From contig NZ_LT629763.1 of NCBI RefSeq assembly GCF_900105255.1, positions 2,666,001-2,730,000 on the forward strand: 64,000 bases of DNA, in the 5' to 3' direction. Within the stretch, counting starts at the first letter, position 1, and every line of letters begins with the position of its first letter. The position numbers were made by a program, and so were the translations under genes. The stretch is from Halopseudomonas sabulinigri. GTDB lineage: Bacteria > Pseudomonadota > Gammaproteobacteria > Pseudomonadales > Pseudomonadaceae. The notes beneath the pieces were generated by a model that saw only the letters and a list, made by a program, of their open reading frames with translations, was not told where the DNA came from and searched no databases. This document shows positions 3,773 through 16,121 of this stretch, one piece after another.

Positions 3773-4789
<1,017 letters not shown>

Positions 4790-4801
4790 ATTCCGGCTTC
4801 C

Positions 4802-5521
4802 TTATAACGAATCCTGGTTAACGCGCTGCATCAACTGCTCGGCGCTTTCAACCCGTTCCGAGTAGCGATCAACCAGATACGCGCTGTGGTCACGTGTCAG
4901 CAGGGTAAACTTCACCAACTCCTCAAGCACATCGACTATGCGGTTGTAGTAGGCCGAGGGCTTCATCCGATCCTGCTCGTCAAACTCCATGAAAGCCTTG
5001 GCCACTGACGATTGATTGGGAATGGTCAACATGCGCATCCAGCGCCCCAGTATGCGCAGTTGATTGACCGCGTTGAACGACTGTGAACCGCCGCTTACCT
5101 GCATTACTGCCAGCGTTTTGCCCTGGGTGGGGCGTACCGCGCCAAGAGACAAGGGAATCCAGTCGATCTGTGCCTTCATGATCCCGGTCATCGCGCCATG
5201 GCGTTCGGGTGTGCACCACACCTGACCTTCTGACCACATCACCAGCTCGCGCAGCTCCTGCACCTTTGGGTGCTGCTCGTCTTCGCTATCGGGCAGAGGC
5301 AAACCACGGGGGTCAAAAATCTGCACCTCGGCGCCCATATGCAGCAACAACCGTGCGCACTCCTCGATAACCAGACGGCTGAAGGAGCGGCTGCGCAGCG
5401 AGCCATACAACAGCAGAAAGCGTGGTTTATGACGGCTGGTCGCTGCGCTGAAGTCGGCACCGGTAGGCGCGCGAAGTTGCTGTTGATCCAGATTCGGTAA
5501 ACTCAGATCGGTCAGGTTCAT
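4802..5521 (-). CDS. arsH: Arsenical resistance flavoprotein ArsH
   Basis: ArsH is an NADPH-dependent FMN oxidoreductase that in characterised bacteria oxidises trivalent organoarsenicals. This 239-residue protein contains the flavodoxin-like FMN-binding start [14 protein letters not shown] and the family blocks [20 protein letters not shown] and [17 protein letters not shown]. The frame is open further upstream to 5623, but that part lies inside arsC in another frame; ATG 5521 overlaps the arsC stop (ATGA), which indicates translational coupling. Confidence 0.93.
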
Positions 5522-5985
5522 GCTTTGGCTCCCAATGCCCGCAAGGCTGGCAGCCATTGCTCGGATTCCAGCTCGGTGAGTGCGGCCAGTTTGTGCACCC
5601 GGTCGCTGATGGTCTGCATGCACTGCGCAAACGCGTCAGCTATCTCGGCTTCACTGCCTTGCACGCTACTGGGATCGCTCAGGCCCCAATGTACCTTGGC
5701 GGCCTTACCAAACCATACCGGGCAGGATTCACCGGCAGCCGAATCGCACACCGTGATGACCAGGTCGGGCGCGAAATCTTCATGTTCATCCAAGGACTGG
5801 CTGCGCAAGTCGTCGCTGACGACGCCCGCCGCAGCAAGATGGCTCAGGGTCAATGGGTGTACCGCTTCTGCCGGCTGACTTCCGGCACTGCGTGCCTCAA
5901 TGCGGTCCCCGGCGTGATGGCGCGTCAGTGCCTCACACAGGATGCTGCGGCAACGGTTGTGGGTGCAGATATAAAGCACTTTCAT
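5518..5985 (-). CDS. arsC: Arsenate reductase, low-molecular-weight phosphatase type
   Basis: ArsC reduces arsenate to arsenite for export by Acr3. The 155-residue protein has the phosphatase-like loop CTHNRCRS (CX5R) near residue 8, and a second cysteine pair C-DSAAGES-C spaced seven residues apart, as in the thioredoxin-coupled three-cysteine relay of the pI258 type. It is not the glutaredoxin-type E. coli plasmid ArsC. It overlaps both neighbours by four bases (ATGA), so arsR-arsC-arsH reads as one transcript. The redox partner is inferred from the cysteine pattern. Confidence 0.92.
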
Positions 5986-6320
5986 GGTGTGGTCTCACAG
6001 CAGGATTCTGCAGCGTTCAAATGCAAAGAACATTCGGCCATATACAAGGGGTTGTTGCGTGCGACTGTGGTGAGCACCTCACGGGCCCAGCCGGGTAAGC
6101 ACGGATTAAGGCGGTAATACACCCAACGTCCGCGGCGCTCATCAACCAGCAGCTCGCATTTGCGCAGCTCGGCCAAATGCCGTGACACCTTTGGCTGGCT
6201 AAGCTGCAACGCGGTTTGCAAATCGCAGACACAGAGTTCCTGGGCTTGCTCAACCAACAGCAGAATCTTCAGACGGGTATCGTCTGCCAGGCATTTGAAA
6301 AACGTGAGTGGCGCAGTCAT
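5982..6320 (-). CDS. arsR: Arsenite-responsive repressor ArsR
   Basis: ArsR/SmtB-family winged-helix repressor of 112 residues that leaves DNA when it binds As(III). The metal-binding motif ELCVCDL sits in the recognition region, followed by the helix SQPKVSRHLAELRK and the wing RRGRWVYYRL. An extra Cys pair lies near the C-terminus (ESCCETTP). The start ATG follows an AGAGG ribosome site. The probable operator is the 20-bp palindrome at 6352-6371, about 30 bp upstream, so the operon is likely autoregulated. Confidence 0.93.
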   Translation of the reverse strand: MTAPLTFFKCLADDTRLKILLLVEQAQELCVCDLQTALQLSQPKVSRHLAELRKCELLVDERRGRWVYYRLNPCLPGWAREVLTTVARNNPLYMAECSLHLNAAESCCETTP

Positions 6321-6351
6321 GGCGTATTTCCTCTAACATCTGCCTAATCAT

Positions 6352-6371
6352 ATATATGAAATTTCAGATAT
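6352..6371. promoter_or_regulatory. Probable ArsR operator
   Basis: A 20-bp near-perfect palindrome, ATATATGAAATTTCAGATAT, with one mismatched pair, lies between the arsR start and the end of the MFS gene. Position and AT-rich dyad fit an ArsR-family operator over the ars promoter. The assignment is inference from position. Confidence 0.65.
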
Positions 6372-6405
6372 CAAGCCAGAACTGCGTTTTTTTGATGCCG
6401 GGTTT

Positions 6406-7776
6406 TCAGTGGCCCGAGCGTGCTACGGATTGGCGGAGGCGCAACGTACTGACGACAGCGGCTACCGCAGCGAAACTGCCGGCCGCGATAAGCGAGGCGT
6501 GGGTGCCATCGTCGCTGAACAGGTTGAATGCCAGGGCCACCAGCGCCGCGCCTGTGGTCTGCCCGACTAAACGCGCGGTACTCAGCATGCCGCTGGCACC
6601 GCCACTGCGTTGCAAGGGAGCAGAGGTCAGAATGGTGTGGTTGTTGGGTGACTGAAAGAGCCCAAAGCCGGCGCCACAGATCAGCATCCGCAACATGATC
6701 TCCAGATGGCTGGCCTGCTGCGGCAAGGCGGCCAGCAGGAAAAGACCAGTGGCAAAAACCGCCAGACCCACACCGCCAAGCAAGCCGGCGTGCAAACGGT
6801 CCAGCAGGCGCCCGGCAATTGGCGCCATGACCATGGTCGCTAGTGGCCAGGGCGTCATCAACAGACCGGTTTCAATCGCACTCAGGCCCAGGGTTTTCTG
6901 AAAGTAGAAGGGGATGGAGACCATGGCCATCATCTGCGCCACAAAGGAGCAGACCGAGGTACCGATCGACAGCGAGAAAATCGGTATGCGCAGCAAATCC
7001 ACCGGCAACAGCGGCAAAGGCTGATCGAGCTGCCGCCGGACAAAAAACCAGCCCACCAGCAGCGCGCCAAGCAACGGAAAAGCGATGCTCCAGCCAGCGT
7101 GACCCTGCGCAAATCCAGTCAGGGCCACAAAAAACAAACCAAAGGTTATCGCGTTAAGCAGCGCACTCCACTTATCGAAGCGTTGCTCCCGCGAGCCTTC
7201 GTTGGCTGGCAGGAATCGATACCCCATCACCAGGGCAAGCAAGCCGACGGGCACATTGATGGCAAATAACCAGGGCCAATCGGCGACGGCCAATACACCG
7301 GCGGCCACCGTGGGGCCCGCGGCGGCCGCTACCGCGACTATCAGGGTATTGATGGCCACGCCACGACCCAGCAAGTGCGAGGGGTAAATCAGCCGCGTCA
7401 ATGCGCCGTTCACGCTCATCACCGCCGCCGCGCCAAAGCCTTGCAGCATACGCGCTAGGGTCAGGGTCATCAGCGAATCACTCAGCGCACAAAGCACCGA
7501 CATGCTGGCAAACACGCTGAGTCCGATCAGGTAAACCTTGCGGTAGCTCCACAGATCTCCCAACGACGCCAACGACAGCAGGCTCATGGTGATGACCAGT
7601 TGGTAGGCGTTGACGATCCAGATGGAATTGGCCGCGCTGGTGCCCAGGTCGTCGGCGATGGTCGGCAACGCCACGTTGGCAATCATGCCGTCGAGCACCG
7701 CCATGGTGACGCCCAGCGCGATGGCGAAGATCGCGCCGAGGCGTTGCGGCATTGGCAGTCCGTCGGCTTGCGGCAT
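6406..7776 (-). CDS. MFS drug/solute exporter, DHA2 (14-TM) family
   Basis: A 456-residue membrane protein of the major facilitator superfamily. The N-terminus shows the DHA2 motif LDGMIANVALPTIADDLG in TM1, then the GDLWSYRKVYLIGL loop (motif A) and LARMLQGFGAAAV (motif B). The number of hydrophobic segments suggests 14 TMs, as in SmvA/QacA-type exporters. Substrate cannot be read from the sequence. It lies upstream of arsR on the same strand but is separated from it by the ars operator, so it is probably a separate unit. It might export an arsenical, but nothing in the sequence shows that. Confidence 0.85.
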   Translation of the reverse strand: MPQADGLPMPQRLGAIFAIALGVTMAVLDGMIANVALPTIADDLGTSAANSIWIVNAYQLVITMSLLSLASLGDLWSYRKVYLIGLSVFASMSVLCALSDSLMTLTLARMLQGFGAAAVMSVNGALTRLIYPSHLLGRGVAINTLIVAVAAAAGPTVAAGVLAVADWPWLFAINVPVGLLALVMGYRFLPANEGSREQRFDKWSALLNAITFGLFFVALTGFAQGHAGWSIAFPLLGALLVGWFFVRRQLDQPLPLLPVDLLRIPIFSLSIGTSVCSFVAQMMAMVSIPFYFQKTLGLSAIETGLLMTPWPLATMVMAPIAGRLLDRLHAGLLGGVGLAVFATGLFLLAALPQQASHLEIMLRMLICGAGFGLFQSPNNHTILTSAPLQRSGGASGMLSTARLVGQTTGAALVALAFNLFSDDGTHASLIAAGSFAAVAAVVSTLRLRQSVARSGH

Positions 7777-7905
7777 ACTGAGATGGCCCTTGCGAGAGGT
7801 CGCGCACCCAGGGCGCGGTGGAGCATTCAGCCCTGCAACATAGCACAGAATGTGGGCCGGTCTGCGGGCCGACCACCCTCGCAGTAACTGGGACTGCGCA
7901 GTTTG

Positions 7906-9162
7906 TCAGGGCCAGCCAAGTACCTCATGGGTCGGCGCTTCGCGCTGCAGCAGACAACGGCCGTCACGGATAGAGGCCAATACCGGAGACTGGTTCAGCA
8001 ACACCTCGTAGGGCGTAGTGCCATTGACCACCATGCAGCGTGCCGGCAGACCTGGCGCAATACCGTATTCGGCAATGTTCAAAGCGGCAGCGCCGTTATC
8101 GGTTACGATCTCCAGCGCGGTTTCTATGCGCTCGATGCCCAGCATATGGCAGGCGTGCAGGCCTACATCCAGGGTGCGCAGCAGATTGCCATTGCCCATC
8201 GGGTACCAGGGATCGCGGATCGAATCTTGACCGAAGCAGACCTTGAGACCCGCATCCAGCAGCTCGGGCACGCGGGTAATACCGCGCGACTTGGGATAAC
8301 CATCAAAGCGGCCCTGCAGATGAAGGTTCTCGGTGGGCAGGGCGACAAAGCGCAGGTCAGACTTCTGCAACAGGCGGAACAGCTTGCTGCAGTAGGCATT
8401 GTTATAGGAATGCATGGCGCAGGTGTGGCTGGCGGTCACCCGGCTGCCGTAATCCCGGCTCAGCGCTTCGGCGGCCAGCACCTCGAGAAAGCGCGAGTTG
8501 GGGTCGTCAATTTCATCGCAGTGCACATCCACCAGGCAATCATTCGCCTCGGCCAGTGCCATCAGCAGCTTCACCGATTCCACGCCATAGTCACGGGTGA
8601 ATTCGAAATGCGGAATGCCGCCGATCACATCGGCGCCCAACTCTACGGCGCGGCGCATCAGGTCCTGCCCACCGGGATAGGAAAGAATACCTTCCTGCGG
8701 AAAGGCCACAATCTGCAGGTCAATATGCTCGCGCACCCGCTCGCGTACCTCGACCATGGCCTGCAGTGCCGTGAGATCAGGGTCGGTGACATCCACATGG
8801 GTGCGCACGTACTGGATGCCGTGCGTGGCGAACAGCTTCAAGGTTTGCTCGGCGCGCTGGATCACATCCTCTCGACTCAGTGTGGCTTTGCGTTCCGCCC
8901 AGCACTCGATGCCCTCGAAGAGCGTACCGCTTCGGTTCCAGCGCGGCTCGCCAGCGGTCATCGCGGCATCCAGATGAATGTGCGGTTCTACAAAGGGCGG
9001 CAGTACCAGATTGCCGGCGGCATCCAGCTGCTGCGCTGTGGCACTCAGGCTGTCCTGCTGCAGTTCGATGGTGCTGAAACGGCCATCGCTCAAGTGCAAG
9101 GTATGTAGCCCAGGCTGGCCGCTGAGGCGGGCGTTGATGATGGCTTCAGGCTGTTGAATCAT
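7906..9162 (-). CDS. codA: Cytosine deaminase
   Basis: CodA hydrolyses cytosine to uracil and ammonia. The 418-residue protein matches the E. coli-type amidohydrolase throughout: metal ligands in PFVEPHIHLD, HVDVTD, the substrate glutamine in VAFPQEG, HCDEIDD with the catalytic Glu, SHTCAMHS, and the last catalytic Asp in CFGQDS. E. coli has GHDD at this last site, so the flanking His and the second Asp are Gln and Ser here. The start overlaps the end of the PucR-type regulator gene (ATGA), making codB-pucR-codA one operon. The product supplies pyrimidine and nitrogen. Confidence 0.93.
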   Translation of the reverse strand: MIQQPEAIINARLSGQPGLHTLHLSDGRFSTIELQQDSLSATAQQLDAAGNLVLPPFVEPHIHLDAAMTAGEPRWNRSGTLFEGIECWAERKATLSREDVIQRAEQTLKLFATHGIQYVRTHVDVTDPDLTALQAMVEVRERVREHIDLQIVAFPQEGILSYPGGQDLMRRAVELGADVIGGIPHFEFTRDYGVESVKLLMALAEANDCLVDVHCDEIDDPNSRFLEVLAAEALSRDYGSRVTASHTCAMHSYNNAYCSKLFRLLQKSDLRFVALPTENLHLQGRFDGYPKSRGITRVPELLDAGLKVCFGQDSIRDPWYPMGNGNLLRTLDVGLHACHMLGIERIETALEIVTDNGAAALNIAEYGIAPGLPARCMVVNGTTPYEVLLNQSPVLASIRDGRCLLQREAPTHEVLGWP

Positions 9163-9911
9163 GGTGCTGTCTCCAGGCAGGCTGACGCGCTGGGCAACTC
9201 GGCCAAAAGCGCGTGCAGCAGAATCAGGGTGTGTTGGTCGGTGGCCTTCTGTGGGTCCAGACCGGTCAGGCGAAAGAGTTTATCGAGTCGGTAGCGCAAT
9301 GAGTTGCGATGGCAGCCCAGCGCCTTTGCCGCAGCACTGAGATTGCCCTGATGCGCCAACCAGGCGCCCAGGCTATCGAGCAGCGGCAACAACGCGGTTA
9401 CCGGGCACTGAATAAAGGGTTGCAGAAAATCGGCCACTTCAGCTGGCGAGCCGAGCCGCTGCTGCAACCGCTCAGGCAGGCTACCGGCCAGCAGTTCCTG
9501 TTGCCGTGCCTGCTCCTGCTCGCGCTGCACTATGGCACGACTGATGGTCTCGGTAACCTGCACCATGGGCAGGGAGTAGGGTTGCTCCAGCAGCGGCATG
9601 GCCAACTGATCGGCCAGACGCAACAGGGCATTTGGCACCTGGCCTATATAGGCATCGCCGGTCAGGATCACCAACCCGGCTACCTCGCTGGCGACGGCTT
9701 CATACAGCCGCTCGGTCAGACTGCCCTGGCTGTGATGGCGGCCGATACCGGTGATGAACACCAGCTCACCACCCTTGACCCAAGGACTGAAGGAACGGTT
9801 TTCCGCCACATAGGGCCAGCGCACCACACGCTGCGCCCCTGTCAGGCCCGCACGCAACTGCATGGCGCCAAGGCCGGGCAGTTGCGGTATATCGTTACAA
9901 CGTAGCAGCAT
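9159..9911 (-). CDS. PucR-family transcriptional regulator of cytosine use
   Basis: A 250-residue regulator with an N-terminal PucR ligand-sensing domain (about residues 10-125, ending before a charged linker) and a C-terminal helix-turn-helix of the PucR/CdaR type, LSAAAKALGCHRNSLRYRLDKLFRLTGLDP. Family members control purine and pyrimidine catabolism. Being translated inside the operon between codB (3 bp upstream) and codA (4 bp overlap) suggests it controls the operon in response to cytosine or a related base; that is inference from context. It is shorter than many PucR proteins, which carry a longer middle region. Confidence 0.85.
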   Translation of the reverse strand: MLLRCNDIPQLPGLGAMQLRAGLTGAQRVVRWPYVAENRSFSPWVKGGELVFITGIGRHHSQGSLTERLYEAVASEVAGLVILTGDAYIGQVPNALLRLADQLAMPLLEQPYSLPMVQVTETISRAIVQREQEQARQQELLAGSLPERLQQRLGSPAEVADFLQPFIQCPVTALLPLLDSLGAWLAHQGNLSAAAKALGCHRNSLRYRLDKLFRLTGLDPQKATDQHTLILLHALLAELPSASACLETAP

Positions 9912-9914
9912 GAT

Positions 9915-11201
9915 TCAGAGGCTGCTCAGCGCGCTGGCGCGTCGTGCCTTGACGCCAGCCACCACGGTTTCCAGCAGGGCATAGCTGAAGGCGGCAACCA
10001 ACACACCGACCACAGGCGCGATCCAGGCCGAGGTGTAGGCCACAAAAGAGCCGATGGCGTAGGCGCTCAAACCAATCAGGTTGAATGCCGGCAGCTGTGT
10101 ACTGGCCAGATCCGGATAGGTGCCGCGATAACGCACGAAGTAATTGGCCATGATGACCCCGCCCACCGGCGGAATGAAGGTACCCAGCAGAATCAGAAAG
10201 GGTATAAGCCACTCGTACATGCCCAGCACCGCCAGCAGGGTGCCGATGGCAGCACCGACCAGGGTCACCGTCTTGCGTCGACGGGTGCGCAGCAAGTTGC
10301 AGCCGGCTACCGCGAAGTTGTAGACGGTGTTGTCCTGGGTGGTCCATAGATTAAGAAACAACATCAGAATACCCAGCGTCGCCAATCCCTGCGCCACCAT
10401 GATGTCAACGATATCGGCCTGCTGATACACCAGCGCACCCAGGGCTCCGACCAGCGTCATCAAGCCATTGCCCAGGAAGAATGCTGCCAAGGTAGCCCAT
10501 ACCGCTGTCTTGCCGGAGCGCGCAAAGCGCGTCCAGTTGGTAGCCTGGGTGCCGCCACTGACAAAGGTACCAAACACCAGGGTAATCGCCGCCGCCATGC
10601 TCAAGTCGCTGGTCGGCGCGATGCTGGTCAGGCCAGCCAGGCCACCGGCATCGGACGCGGCAATAAACATGCTGACGGCAATCAGCACAATCATCGCCGG
10701 CACGGCCACGCTCGACAGCAACTCCAGGCCCCGATAGCCAATAAAGGCGGTGACACAAAAGCCAAAGCCAAAGAGCACCATCAACGGCAGGGTGGCCCCT
10801 TCCGGCAAACCGGTCATTTTTACCAGCAGCAGCGCCATGGTCGCCGTACCCCAGGCGTACCAGCCAATCTGGGTAAAACCGAGAATAAAATCCGACAGCT
10901 TGCTGCCAATCTCACCAAAGGCATACCGGCTCATCAGCGCCGTATTCAAGCCCGAACGCGCCGCGATATAACCCAGCACCGCGGCATAAACACCCAACAA
11001 CAGATTACCAATCAACAATACCCACATCAGGGTAGCGAAATCGAAGGCCGTGCCGACAGTGCCGCCGGCCCACATGGTGGCGGTAAAGAAGGTAAACCCA
11101 AGTAGCACCAGGCCCATGGACCAAAGGCTTTTTCTGGCTGATTCGGGTACTGGGCTAAGCGGGTAATCCTGCTCCTGCGCAGTGCTGGTGGTATCTGTCA
11201 T
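9915..11201 (-). CDS. codB: Cytosine permease
   Basis: CodB imports cytosine with a cation across the inner membrane. The protein is 428 residues (E. coli CodB is about 420) with about 12 hydrophobic segments of the NCS1 family: GFTFFTATMWAGGTVG in TM1, SRYAFGEIGS, a tilted-helix segment GFTQIGWYAWG and the later QATNWTRFARSGK. It is the first gene of codB-pucR-codA. A perfect sigma-54 promoter core lies about 86 bp upstream at 11287-11302, so the operon is likely nitrogen-regulated. Confidence 0.93.
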   Translation of the reverse strand: MTDTTSTAQEQDYPLSPVPESARKSLWSMGLVLLGFTFFTATMWAGGTVGTAFDFATLMWVLLIGNLLLGVYAAVLGYIAARSGLNTALMSRYAFGEIGSKLSDFILGFTQIGWYAWGTATMALLLVKMTGLPEGATLPLMVLFGFGFCVTAFIGYRGLELLSSVAVPAMIVLIAVSMFIAASDAGGLAGLTSIAPTSDLSMAAAITLVFGTFVSGGTQATNWTRFARSGKTAVWATLAAFFLGNGLMTLVGALGALVYQQADIVDIMVAQGLATLGILMLFLNLWTTQDNTVYNFAVAGCNLLRTRRRKTVTLVGAAIGTLLAVLGMYEWLIPFLILLGTFIPPVGGVIMANYFVRYRGTYPDLASTQLPAFNLIGLSAYAIGSFVAYTSAWIAPVVGVLVAAFSYALLETVVAGVKARRASALSSL

Positions 11202-11286
11202 GGTGGCGCTCTCCTGTCATGGCATGCGTTTGCAGCCCAGCGCTAGTGCGCATGCGGCCGCCGGTTCAGTGAATCGAAGCGGATTT

Positions 11287-11302
11287 TGCAATGCCTGTGC
11301 CA
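11287..11302 (-). promoter_or_regulatory. Sigma-54 (RpoN) promoter for codB-pucR-codA
   Basis: On the minus strand the sequence reads TGGCAC-AGGCA-TTGCA, an exact match to the -24/-12 consensus TGGCAC-N5-TTGCA. It points at codB with a predicted leader of about 75 bases. Such promoters need an enhancer-binding activator; the dyad at 11349-11363 is a possible upstream site. Confidence 0.8.
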
Positions 11303-11348
11303 CACGGCGGGTTTTCTCTTCTTGGCAAACAGCGGCAGCCCACATCTT

Positions 11349-11363
11349 TGTGCATATTGCACA
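11349..11363. promoter_or_regulatory. Dyad upstream of the codB sigma-54 promoter
   Basis: Perfect inverted repeat TGTGCA-N3-TGCACA, about 50-60 bp upstream of the -24 element. It could bind the sigma-54 activator or the PucR-type protein. It does not match the NtrC consensus well, so the binder is unknown. Confidence 0.45.
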
Positions 11364-11489
11364 TATCATCCAGTCGTGTGCGCCAATTTGAGGCCGTTGC
11401 CTGCTAGCAGAGCGCCGTGATGTGCTACCTGCGCACCACTCAAACAGCAATTAAGTGATGAATTTCACGCCAATCAACACGATGAGCCC

Positions 11490-11745
11490 TGTGGAAAACC
11501 CCGCCTAAGCCAGGTCCATAACCCTGTGGGTAAGCTGCGGCGAAACCCACCTGTGGATAACAGACCTACTTATACACAGGAACAGAACCCTACTACCCAC
11601 CCCTGCAGTACCGCTTCCTAACAGGCTTATGCTTCTCGCAATGCTATGATCAATAAAGAGTTTTTTGGCTTACCCACAGAAAAACGGCTACTCATTAGTA
11701 GTAACTACATTAAGCTTTATATAATTCTTTTTCTTTTATTCTATT
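11490..11745. other. DnaA-box cluster and AT-rich tract upstream of mnmG (origin-like)
   Basis: Five 9-mers close to the DnaA box lie in about 190 bp: TTTTCCACA (minus, 11490-11498), TTACCCACA (minus, 11525-11533), TTATCCACA (minus, 11552-11560, perfect), TTATACACA (plus, 11570-11578, perfect) and TTACCCACA (plus, 11670-11678). A strongly AT-rich stretch follows at about 11680-11745, like a DNA unwinding element. Together with the codB promoter parts this accounts for the 678-bp gap between codB and mnmG. Whether it fires as an origin, titrates DnaA or only regulates mnmG cannot be told from sequence. Confidence 0.6.
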
Positions 11746-11879
11746 TCTGTATTCCTGTTCGACCTCCAGCAAAAGGCCTGTACAAAAAATGCTCAGTAGC
11801 AGCTGCATTTTTTTCTCCCTGAGCCTATAATCAGCCCCTTTTTCCGACGCCAGGCAAAACCTGAGCAACGAGGTGTTAC

Positions 11880-13778
11880 GTGGATTTTCCGAGTCGCTTT
11901 GACGTCATCGTGGTCGGCGGTGGCCATGCCGGTACCGAAGCTGCCCTGGCCGCTGCGCGTATGGGCGTTAAAACCCTGCTGCTGAGCCATAACGTCGAAA
12001 CGCTGGGTCAGATGAGTTGCAACCCCGCCATTGGCGGCATTGGCAAGAGCCATCTGGTCAAGGAAATCGACGCCCTTGGTGGCGCCATGGCGATAGCGAC
12101 CGACAAGGCCGGCATCCAGTTTCGTGTGCTCAACAGCCGCAAGGGCCCGGCGGTACGCGCCACCCGGGCGCAGGCTGACCGCGTGCTGTACAAAGCGGCT
12201 ATTCGCGAGATTCTGGAGAACCAGCCCAATCTGTGGATTTTCCAGCAGGCCTGCGACGACCTGATCGTTGAACAGGGCGAAGCCAAAGGCGTAGTGACCC
12301 AGATGGGCCTGCGTTTTCTCGCCGACAACGTGGTACTGACCACGGGGACCTTTCTCGGTGGCCTGATTCACATCGGGCTGGACAACTACTCCGGTGGTCG
12401 CGCCGGTGATCCGCCGGCCATCGCCCTGGCCAAACGCCTGCGCGAGTTGCCGCTGCGCGTTGATCGCCTGAAAACCGGGACGCCGCCGCGCATCGATGGC
12501 CGTAGTGTGGATTTCAGCAAGATGACCGCGCAGCCCGGTGATACGCCGATCCCGGTCATGTCGTTCATGGGTAACGCGCAACAGCATCCGGCCCAGGTGA
12601 ACTGCTGGATTACCTACACCAACGAGCGTACCCACGAGATCATCCGCAACAACCTGGATCGCTCGCCGATGTACACCGGCGTGATCGAAGGGGTGGGCCC
12701 ACGCTATTGCCCGTCGATCGAAGACAAGATTCATCGCTTTGCCGACAAGAACCAGCATCAGGTATTCATCGAGCCGGAAGGCCTGACTACCCACGAGCTG
12801 TATCCCAACGGTATTTCCACCTCGCTGCCATTCGACGTTCAGCTACAGATCGTGCAGTCGATTGTCGGTATGGAAAACGCGCATATCCTGCGGCCTGGTT
12901 ACGCCATCGAATACGATTATTTCAACCCGCAGGATCTGAAGTACTCGCTGGAAACCAAGGTGATTGGCGGGTTGTTCTTTGCCGGCCAGATCAACGGTAC
13001 CACCGGCTACGAAGAGGCCGCGGCGCAGGGCTTGTTGGCCGGTCTGAACGCTGCGCGTCGCGCCCAGGGTCAGGAAGCCTGGTGCCCACGTCGTGATGAG
13101 GCCTACATCGGCGTGCTGGTGGATGACCTGATCACCATGGGTACCCGCGAGCCCTATCGCATGTTCACCTCACGCGCCGAGTACCGCTTGGTGCTGCGTG
13201 AAGACAACGCCGATCTGCGCCTGACCCCCAAGGGCCGCGAACTGGGCCTGGTCGACGATGCCCGCTGGGCGGTGTTCAATACCAAGCGCGAGGCCATCGA
13301 GCAGGAAACCCAGCGCCTGCGCAGTACCTGGGTGCAGCCGGCCAGTGACATCGGCAAGGCCTACAGCGCGCGTTACAACACGCCACTCACCCACGAGTAC
13401 AACCTGCTCGACCTGCTGCGCCGCCCGGAAGTGGACTATCAGGCGTTGACCGAACTGACCGGTGCCGTGGAGATTCCGCTGGATGCCGCCGAACAGGTCG
13501 AGATTCATACCAAGTACGCCGGTTACATCGAGCGTCAGCAGGAAGAAATCGACCGTCTGCGCCAACACGAGCAGACCGCTCTGCCGCTGGATCTGGATTA
13601 CAGCGCGCTCAACGGCCTGTCCAACGAAATTCGCCACAAACTGGCGGATGTGCGCCCGCAAACACTCGGCCAGGCTTCGCGGATTCCCGGTGTGACGCCG
13701 GCGGCCGTCAGCCTGCTGCTGATTCATCTGAAAAAACGCAATGCCCTGGGTGGCAGCAAACTGGCCCAGGAGGCATAA
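11880..13778 (+). CDS. mnmG: tRNA uridine-5-carboxymethylaminomethyl modification enzyme MnmG
   Basis: FAD-dependent partner of MnmE in wobble-uridine modification (older name GidA). The 632-residue length is normal. The FAD dinucleotide fold [21 protein letters not shown] is at about residues 9-29, with the family signatures [17 protein letters not shown] and [15 protein letters not shown], and the conserved C-terminal helical domain ends near [15 protein letters not shown]. The start is GTG 11880, preceded by GAGG; no ATG fits. A TATAAT -10 element lies at 11826-11831. It heads mnmG-rsmG-parA-parB with short gaps. Confidence 0.97.
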
Positions 13779-13783
13779 CATCG

Positions 13784-14419
13784 ATGGCGGACCACGCAGC
13801 ACAACTGGCCAGCGGTGCCAGTCAGTTGGGGATCGATCTGCAACCGCAGCAAAGCGACAAGCTGCTCGCCTACCTTGGCCTGTTGAACAAGTGGAACAAG
13901 GCCTACAACCTGACCGCCGTGCGTGACCCGGATGAGATGGTCAGCCGGCATCTGCTCGACAGCCTGAGCATACTGCCCTTCGTGCAGGGCGAAACCTGGC
14001 TGGACGTTGGCAGCGGCGGCGGCATGCCCGGGGTGATTCTGGCCATCATGTGCCCTGACCAGCATTTCAGCCTGCTCGACAGCAATGGCAAGAAAACCCG
14101 CTTTCTGACCCAGGTCAAGCTGGAGCTGGGGCTGGATAATCTGCAGGTATTCAATTGCCGGGTAGAAGCACTCGAAGTCGATAAACCCTTTACCGGCATC
14201 ACCTCGCGTGCCTTCAGCGCGCTCGGCGACTTCGTCGACAAGACCCGCCAGCTGGGTAATGCAGAAACTCGCTGGCTGGCGATGAAAGGTGTGTATCCTG
14301 AGGACGAGCTGGCGGCAATGCCGGTCGACTTCACGCTGGAGCGTAGTGCAGAATTGTCGGTCCCCGGTTGCGTCGGCCACCGGCATCTGCTGATACTGCG
14401 TCGCACGGATCAGGGTTAA
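13784..14419 (+). CDS. rsmG: 16S rRNA (guanine-527-N7)-methyltransferase
   Basis: RsmG (GidB) methylates G527 of 16S rRNA using S-adenosylmethionine. The 211-residue protein has the N-terminal [13 protein letters not shown] block, the SAM-binding motif [13 protein letters not shown] near residue 74 and [11 protein letters not shown]. It starts 5 bp after mnmG, and its ribosome site (AGGAGG) lies in the last mnmG codons. Confidence 0.95.
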
Positions 14420-14436
14420 TCGTAAAGGAGGTCAAT

Positions 14437-15240
14437 GTGGGCAAGGTTTTGGCAGTGGCCAACCAGAAAGGCGGTGTGGGTAAAACCACCACCACCATCA
14501 ATCTTGCCGCCTCCCTGGCTGCGACCAAGCGCAAGGTACTGCTGATCGACCTCGACCCGCAGGGTAACGCCACCATGGGCAGTGGCATCAACAAAGCTGA
14601 TCTGGACAATTCGGTATACGAACTGCTGACCGGGCGCTGCGAATTCGATCAGGCATTACAGCGCTCCGAGCATGGCGGCTATGATCTGCTGCCCGCCAAT
14701 GGCGATCTGACCGCCGCCGAAGTTGAATTGATGAACATCAAGATGAAGGAAAGCCGGCTGCGCTACGCCTTGGTCAAGGCGCGTACCCAGTACGATTTCA
14801 TCCTCATCGACTGCCCGCCGTCGCTCAATATGCTGACGGTCAATGGCCTGGTCGCCGCCGATGGTGTGATCATTCCCATGCAATGCGAGTACTACGCACT
14901 CGAAGGCCTGTCGGCACTGGTCAACACCATCAGCCGCATCGCATCGGTGCTCAACCCCGCGCTGCAGATCGAGGGGCTGTTGCGCACCATGTACGATCCG
15001 CGCAATAGCCTGACGCTGGATGTATCCGCGCAGCTCACCGCGCATTTTGGCGACAAGCTCTATCAAACCGTAATTCCGCGCAATGTGCGTCTGGCCGAAG
15101 CCCCCAGTTTTGGTATGCCGGCATTGGCCTACGACAAGCAGTCGCGCGGCGCAGTCGCCTATCTGGCGCTGGCCGGGGAAGTAGTGCGACGTACTCGACA
15201 GGCAGCCAAAGCGGCCGCCGTGACAGATTTGAACGAATAA
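14437..15240 (+). CDS. parA: Chromosome partitioning ATPase ParA (Soj)
   Basis: ParA forms a nucleoid-bound ATPase gradient that moves ParB-parS complexes. The 267-residue protein carries the deviant Walker motif KGGVGKTT (11-18), the Walker A' DLDPQGNAT and Walker B LIDCPPS. The frame is open upstream to 14368, but GTG 14437 with an AAGGAGG site five bases before it gives the normal ParA N-terminus (MGKVLAVANQKGG). It lies 17 bp after rsmG. A matching parS site is at 29330-29345. Confidence 0.95.
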   Translation: MGKVLAVANQKGGVGKTTTTINLAASLAATKRKVLLIDLDPQGNATMGSGINKADLDNSVYELLTGRCEFDQALQRSEHGGYDLLPANGDLTAAEVELMNIKMKESRLRYALVKARTQYDFILIDCPPSLNMLTVNGLVAADGVIIPMQCEYYALEGLSALVNTISRIASVLNPALQIEGLLRTMYDPRNSLTLDVSAQLTAHFGDKLYQTVIPRNVRLAEAPSFGMPALAYDKQSRGAVAYLALAGEVVRRTRQAAKAAAVTDLNE

Positions 15241-15260: not shown

Positions 15261-16121
15261 ATGGCGGGCAAGAAACGCGGCTTGGGACGAGGACTGGATG
15301 CGCTGCTCGGGCAGGGCAACACCACCGACGGTGCGAGCAACAACCAGGATCAGCAACTCAAGGAACTGCCGGTCGACCTGATTCAGCGCGGCAAGTATCA
15401 GCCCCGCCGTGACATGGACCCGCAGGCATTGGAAGAGTTGGCGGAGTCGATCCGCGCCCAGGGCGTGATGCAGCCGATTGTCGTGCGTGCCATTGCGGAC
15501 GAACGCTACGAGATCATTGCCGGTGAGCGTCGCTGGCGCGCCACCCAACTGGCCGGACTGGATACCATACCCACGGTCATTCGTGATGTGCCCGATGAAG
15601 CCGCCATCGCCATGGCGCTGATCGAAAACATCCAGCGCGAAGATCTCAATCCGATCGAAGAAGCCATTGCCCTGCAGCGGCTGCAACAGGAGTTCGAACT
15701 CACCCAGCAGCAGGTCGCTGACGCGGTGGGCAAAAGTCGCGTCAGTATCACCAACCTGCTGCGCCTGACCAGTTTGCCCGACGATGTCAAAACCATGCTC
15801 GAACGCGGCGACCTGGAAATGGGCCATGCACGCGCGCTACTGGGCCTGCCCGCCGAACAACAGACCGCTGCCGCCCGCCAGGTGGTGGCCAAAGGGCTGA
15901 CCGTTCGTCAGACCGAGGCACTGGTGCGCCAATGGCTCAACCCCCGTCGTGATCCCGGCCAACAGCGTCTCAATCCCGACGTCGAGCGTCTGCAACAGGA
16001 CCTTGGCGAACGTTTGGGTGCCGAGGTCAAACTGCAACACGGTGCCAAGGGCAAAGGGAAACTGGTGATCAGTTACAGCTCACTGGATGAGCTCGATGGC
16101 ATTCTTGGGCATATCCGCTAA
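15261..16121 (+). CDS. parB: Chromosome partitioning protein ParB (Spo0J)
   Basis: CTP-dependent clamp protein that loads at parS and spreads along DNA. The 286-residue protein shows a basic N-terminus (KKRGLGRGLDALLG), the ParB/Srx nucleotide domain with GERRWRA (about residues 90-96), ENIQREDLNPIEEA, the helix-turn-helix QQVADAVGKSRVSITNLLRL and a C-terminal dimerisation region. It follows parA by 20 bp. The stop is followed by about 300 bp without a gene that carries the atp promoter. Confidence 0.96.
   Translation: MAGKKRGLGRGLDALLGQGNTTDGASNNQDQQLKELPVDLIQRGKYQPRRDMDPQALEELAESIRAQGVMQPIVVRAIADERYEIIAGERRWRATQLAGLDTIPTVIRDVPDEAAIAMALIENIQREDLNPIEEAIALQRLQQEFELTQQQVADAVGKSRVSITNLLRLTSLPDDVKTMLERGDLEMGHARALLGLPAEQQTAAARQVVAKGLTVRQTEALVRQWLNPRRDPGQQRLNPDVERLQQDLGERLGAEVKLQHGAKGKGKLVISYSSLDELDGILGHIR

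Follow-up and report, generated by a model that had tools for sequence, protein, structure and literature searches.

A single origin is generally assumed for a bacterial chromosome. What, then, is the dense group of DnaA boxes directly upstream of mnmG in Halopseudomonas sabulinigri, on the same chromosome as the origin beside dnaA: a second origin, the remains of one, a store of DnaA or part of a promoter? The genome of H. sabulinigri consists of one contig of 4.03 Mb, from which a stretch of 64,000 nucleotides (the window; positions 2,666,001 to 2,730,000 of the forward strand) was analysed together with its flank and with related genomes. The origin between dnaA and rpmH is referred to as oriC1; it lies just outside the left end of the window, 12 kb from the site upstream of mnmG, which is referred to as oriC2.

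The DnaA-box array upstream of mnmG

Mismatches were counted against the DnaA box consensus TTATNCACA. The non-coding DNA between the codB and mnmG open reading frames contained five boxes within 189 bp (11490-11678), two of which were perfect, followed by an AT-rich tract:

11490..11498, minus strand, DnaA box A, the outer box of the array (TTTTCCACA)
11525..11533, minus strand, DnaA-box-like 9-mer between A and B (TTACCCACA)
11552..11560, minus strand, DnaA box B, perfect (TTATCCACA), 62 bp from A
11570..11578, plus strand, DnaA box C, perfect (TTATACACA), 18 bp from B, with which it forms a convergent pair
11670..11678, plus strand, DnaA box D (TTACCCACA), 100 bp from C and 180 bp from A, adjoining the AT-rich tract
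11690..11749, no strand, AT-rich tract (78% AT), candidate for the DNA unwinding element (DUE)

Some relatives, but not others, had the 9-mer between A and B at the same place. Allowing one mismatch, the 64 kb contained 19 sites, below the shuffled mean of 24.3, so the unusual signal was the clustering of the boxes. The fullest 189-bp window held one, two or three boxes in 112, 365 and 23 of 500 shuffles, respectively, and four or five boxes in none of them. The sequence-only reading of the window had described five boxes, two of them perfect, next to AT-rich DNA, and this was confirmed. The AT content of the tract compares with a window average of 39%, and the two most AT-rich 60-mer places in 72 kb were located at oriC2 (0.82) and at the dnaA/rpmH origin (0.83).

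Of the surrounding genes, yidC, mnmE, the inserted genes, mnmG and rsmG were named by family search and rpmH by tblastn:

C1:2663754-2665211, minus strand, dnaA, just left of the window
3773..11201, minus strand, block between mnmE and the oriC2 array (family search)
11880..13778, plus strand, mnmG (gidA; TIGR00136, 933.8 bits), directly downstream of oriC2
13784..14419, plus strand, rsmG (gidB; TIGR00138)
14368-15240 and 15261-16121, reading frames after rsmG (open reading frame list)

The position of dnaA agreed with the earlier placement of the usual pseudomonad origin to the left of the window. The mnmG start codon began 202 bp past the last base of box D. The two reading frames after rsmG are presumably parA and parB, as judged by gene order. 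Origin-associated genes flanked oriC2 on both sides, with mnmG and rsmG to the right and mnmE, yidC, rpmH and dnaA to the left. Two perfect matches to the parS consensus were located beyond dnaA; the reversed control gave three matches at up to one mismatch.

A matching array at the dnaA-proximal origin

The boxes of oriC1 were located at rpmH -367 (-), -305 (-), -287 (+) and -187 (+), and those of oriC2 at mnmG -390 (-), -328 (-), -310 (+) and -210 (+), with box A corresponding to the box at rpmH -367. The two sites shared the order, orientation and spacing of their boxes (A minus, 62 bp, B minus, 18 bp, C plus, 100 bp, D plus), followed by AT-rich DNA on the side of the co-directional gene. 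Both arrays ended in the same variant box D (TTACCCACA), followed by GAAAA. In an ungapped alignment, 118 of 210 positions were identical, compared with a background mean of 52.6 (sd 6.4) and a next best value of 85 over 143,580 registers on both strands of 72 kb. A whole-genome scan recovered the convergent B-C pair at up to one mismatch at oriC1 and oriC2 only; two further sites required three mismatches, and the reversed control gave one. By its geometry and its similarity outside the boxes, and as far as sequence comparison can tell, oriC2 is a paralogue of oriC1.

Apart from lying beside mnmG rather than rpmH and dnaA, oriC2 differed from the dnaA-proximal origin of Pseudomonas, located between rpmH and dnaA, in one component:

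C1:2665342 (7342-7350 of locus L006), plus strand, extra perfect box of oriC1, upstream of box A, 658 bp left of the window start

No perfect plus-strand box was present within 140 bp upstream of box A at oriC2 of H. sabulinigri.

Conservation across the Pseudomonadaceae

The family set comprised the best 80 of 566 confirmed loci, that is, the nearest relatives, metagenome-assembled genomes included; the statements on loci below refer to these 80. Upstream of mnmG, 77 of them had enough DNA for analysis and, together with H. sabulinigri, gave a sample of 78. Regions were scored with a four-box template (62/80/180, tolerance 1, maximum 32). All 78 mnmG-side regions scored 26-31, although they are not 78 independent observations because the loci are related, and 64 of 65 rpmH-side regions scored 25-31. 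The 525 control windows, drawn from mostly coding DNA downstream of mnmG in these loci, reached 21 at most. The spacing was 62/80/179 or 62/80/180 in 73 of 78 mnmG-side and 58 of 65 rpmH-side regions, corresponding to 62/18/99-100 between successive boxes. The comparison of box spacing across the Pseudomonadaceae that had been suggested for this site found it conserved in the loci examined and equal to that of the dnaA-side origin.

The sample included P. aeruginosa PA7, with an array upstream of mnmG scoring 27. The single rpmH-side exception was Pseudomonas sp. N040 (L082), which scored 20 on the rpmH side and 26 on the mnmG side and may use its origins differently.

A separate, independent set of 59 genomes of the family was searched for just the B-C pair. 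With one mismatch allowed, each of the six genomes of the genus contained two such pairs, which lay on the same contig and were separated by 4.4 to 12 kb. With two mismatches allowed, at least one pair was found in 51 of the 59 genomes and none in eight, with the reversed control matching some genomes too. One family genome without a B-C match (G104) had the A-B-D spacing at both places, namely 62/179 next to dnaA and 62/178 next to mnmG.

A perfect plus-strand box within 140 bp upstream of box A was present in 64 of 64 rpmH-side loci, most commonly 85 bp from A, versus 10 of 78 mnmG-side loci. Since this box is mostly confined to oriC1, the two sites are not equivalent. It likely constitutes a functional difference between the copies, and its distribution indicates that oriC2 is probably subordinate to oriC1.

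Sequence constraint on the arrays

Outside the Halopseudomonas group (n=55), mnmG-side pairwise identity was 0.81-0.94 in the boxes, 0.55 between them and 0.59 in the AT tract, and dropped to 0.28, near chance, beyond box A. The Halopseudomonas group (n=16) gave 0.83-0.99, 0.51, 0.55 and 0.26, respectively. The rpmH side (n=44) was alike, with a weaker box C (0.69) and a flank of 0.38. The AT tract was somewhat better conserved on the mnmG side than on the rpmH side, with 0.59 versus 0.50 outside Halopseudomonas and 0.55 versus 0.53 within the group.

These values bear on the suggestion of the sequence-only reading that the site might be an active or relic second origin or a titration site. 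A decaying relic of an old origin would fit the expectation that a second copy decays unless it is used. It is contradicted by the conservation of boxes and geometry, with the four-box array kept in all 78 loci next to a flank of near-random identity, and we regard it as barely credible. The suggestion of an origin-like second site was supported.

Within genomes, oriC1 and oriC2 were 0.53-0.54 identical, versus 0.26 in shifted register (64 genomes). In the same genomes the box-free 85 bp before box D shared 0.43 (background 0.25), and the DNA beyond box A 0.255 (background 0.250). Gene conversion between the copies was considered and is not claimed, because relatedness could explain the slight excess of within-genome over cross-genome similarity (0.540 versus 0.526, permutation p 0.034; 0.529 versus 0.515, 0 of 5000 permutations).

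In the segment from box C to box D, the two sides had TCTCTGTACAC and AAGGCCT at equal positions of their commonest-base consensus, mainly in L042-L105. Exact copies of CTGTACAC were present in 19 of 78 mnmG-side and 11 of 64 rpmH-side loci, and exact copies of AAGGCCT in 17 of 78 and 4 of 64, respectively; neither motif was found in oriC1 or oriC2 of H. sabulinigri. A conserved IHF site was rejected as a candidate, as loose IHF matches at the same place occurred in only 10 of 78 mnmG-side and 3 of 64 rpmH-side loci.

Box A stood at a steady distance from the mnmG start codon (370-432 bp in 78 of 78 loci), and 12 of the 71 loci that showed rpmH had a gap between rpmH and its array that exceeded the median by 1.3 to 7.6 kb. 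A steady distance would also be expected if boxes and AT-rich DNA formed a DnaA-controlled promoter region that tunes mnmG transcription. We consider such a role very unlikely, since the same geometry precedes rpmH, an unrelated gene, and since the E. coli gidA promoter is described as free of DnaA boxes (PMC5835720). A simple sigma-70 scan of 11200-11900 gave no site, which says little because the promoter of mnmG itself was also missed.

Genes inserted to the left of oriC2

The block at 3773..11201 encoded Acr3, ArsH, a low-molecular-weight (LMW) phosphatase, an ArsR-type regulator, an MFS transporter, cytosine deaminase, a PucR-type regulator and cytosine permease. It placed arsenic resistance genes (acr3, arsH, LMW phosphatase and ArsR-type regulator genes, 3773-6320) between mnmE and oriC2. 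Five of the 80 named loci had parts of the block in common with H. sabulinigri: counterparts of codB, of its regulator and of codA were present in L041, L029, L034, L026 and L027, those of the MFS gene in L029, L034, L026 and L027, and those of acr3 in L026 and L027. The arsH gene and two small ars-type genes were found in H. sabulinigri only, at a threshold that may miss small proteins. The cytosine deaminase, PucR-type regulator and cytosine permease genes (7906-11201) adjoined the left of the array in all five loci that have them, and the genes behind this trio differed among the five. The insertion between mnmE and oriC2 looks stepwise, as if genes accrete at the left edge of the array. 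The array itself was intact beside the block, in line with the earlier remark that the site survives despite foreign genes on its left. A plasmid source was not indicated, as the plasmid collection gave no match.

Strand skew and use of the two copies

In 20-kb samples, GC skew was negative to the left of the region and positive to the right; because the sign changes across the region, both oriC1 and oriC2 lie in the origin region. The local change point, at window 18.0 kb with a bootstrap interval of 15-22 kb, coincided with neither site. Raw skew kept its negative sign between oriC1 and roughly window 16 kb, which would suit the mnmG-side site as the main origin of the lineage, as in E. coli, with the dnaA-side cluster being secondary; the better conserved AT tract on the mnmG side points the same way. 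At fourfold sites over 73 loci, in contrast, yidC was leading-like (-0.018), though mnmE (-0.130) was not: mnmE fell between the leading and lagging means, as did mnmG (-0.108), which lies to the right of both origins. The reference means from mechanically called ORFs of H. sabulinigri were 0.010 for leading (n=71) and -0.182 for lagging genes (n=54). Fourfold skew is confounded because the intervening genes carry gene-specific bias, and GC skew was set aside as an arbiter between oriC1 and oriC2. In two papers the origin of Pseudomonas is located at dnaA (PMC3642087, PMC3596284). We regard a main origin at mnmG as highly improbable.

Occurrence beyond the family

The other families of the order were represented by 31 genomes, one per family (four more were dropped), of which 28 were available for the dnaA side. 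The commonest mnmG-side box pairs were C-D at 99 bp (six genomes) and B-D at 117 bp (five genomes); B-C at 18 bp (four of 31) shared third place with one unrelated pair. Taken together, the twelve template pairs totalled 19 on the mnmG side, where shuffles gave a mean of 0.12 and a maximum of 2; an expectation of approximately 3.5 from the same sequences is fairer because boxes cluster anyway. Pairs including box A were each found on the mnmG side in none of the 31 genomes. On the dnaA side, pairs totalled 13 against an expectation of approximately 3.8, with A-D at 179-180 in four of the 28 genomes. The full template reached at least 25 in 4 of 31 mnmG-side and 2 of 28 dnaA-side regions, and shuffles reached 24. 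Judged by these spacings, part of the geometry beside mnmG (B, C and D) is older than the Pseudomonadaceae. In a genome of another family of the order (G092, L195), an array located approximately 0.4-0.6 kb upstream of mnmG scored 30 of 32, and the B-C-D spacing was present on the dnaA side as well.

Among 50 genomes from other orders of the class, template pairs totalled 1 on the mnmG side and 4 on the dnaA side, and no array scored above 23; at least three boxes in 760 bp were present in 7 of 50 mnmG-side and 12 of 50 dnaA-side regions. The outer A-D frame had been expected to be general in the class. Two perfect boxes at the A-D distance were found in only 4 of 281 class genomes (reversed control 1), in a search that was insensitive because H. 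sabulinigri itself failed to match.

Comparison with E. coli oriC and other known systems

The sequence-only reading had pointed out that E. coli keeps oriC next to mnmG, and oriC2 indeed occupied the same place relative to this gene as the E. coli origin between mnmG and mioC, directly upstream and with AT-rich DNA between boxes and gene. The outer boxes of E. coli oriC, R4 (-) and R1 (+), are 180 bp apart, equal to the A-D distance of oriC2. With box D masked, the R1 position ranked 32nd of 9802 places in a 5-kb E. coli stretch for the mnmG-side profile and 2nd for the rpmH-side profile. The inner box R2 lies at +74 in E. coli, versus +62 for box B of oriC2, and E. coli oriC contains 11 GATC sites versus one at oriC2; because of these two differences, oriC2 was not filed as E. 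coli-type. As one shared distance and weak similarity are involved, the sequences are suggestive of common descent with E. coli oriC and not proof of it.

A second autonomously replicating element of P. aeruginosa was reportedly described by Yee and Smith in 1990 and by Jiang et al. in 2006, and this element presumably corresponds to the mnmG-side site. The earlier statement that Pseudomonas has more than one autonomously replicating region is supported by a review, in which P. aeruginosa has two autonomously replicating elements, only one of them essential under laboratory conditions (PMC4403523, citing Jiang et al. 2006). The likeness to oriC2 lies in an additional origin on the chromosome of a pseudomonad, and origin-like elements of this kind are already known from Pseudomonas. 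The literature searched, covering few subscription papers, yielded no paper naming the mnmG-side site as the second P. aeruginosa origin, nor one on the geometry shared by both sites across the family or on the mnmG placement.

Proposed role of oriC2

Our preferred reading, held with moderate confidence from the comparison of sequences, is that the chromosomal origin exists in two copies, of which oriC2 is the second, paralogous to oriC1 and maintained by selection. DnaA would fill boxes A to D at oriC2 as at oriC1, and a DnaA filament would extend from box D into the AT-rich tract, where the strands would open on the mnmG side and helicase could be loaded. During normal growth, oriC1 would probably perform most initiation, and oriC2 could act as a backup or secondary origin and, in addition, retain DnaA in the vicinity of oriC1.

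The datA and DARS elements of E. coli are clusters of DnaA boxes in non-coding DNA at a distance from dnaA; oriC2 resembles them in both respects, but they are not known to be copies of oriC. Acting in their manner, oriC2 could be a DnaA reservoir or regulator with origin-like geometry, titrating DnaA or altering its nucleotide state near oriC1 without ever opening. This explanation is possible, if rather unlikely. It is consistent with boxes better conserved than spacers, with the absence of the extra perfect oriC1 box from 68 of 78 mnmG-side copies among the best 80 of 566 loci, and with only one of the P. aeruginosa origins being reported as essential. Titration alone, however, needs neither an AT-rich tract on the same side, nor a spacing shared with oriC1, nor a steady distance to mnmG.

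Returning to oriC2 as a second origin copy, a wider version is tentative: the two matching pseudomonad origins may be as old as the family and older, the mnmG copy may be the orthologue of E. coli oriC, both may stem from one duplicated origin, and both may be able to fire. If this were true, the 'dnaA-type' and 'mnmG-type' origins of Gammaproteobacteria would be one duplicated origin, with lineages relying on different copies. The same spacing in different sequence at two sites suggests that box order and distances are the constrained parts of the orisome. For the Pseudomonadaceae, a family-wide second origin layout at mnmG, the gene that also borders oriC in E. coli, would offer a ready test of natural two-origin chromosomes and of the move of the origin between dnaA and mnmG.
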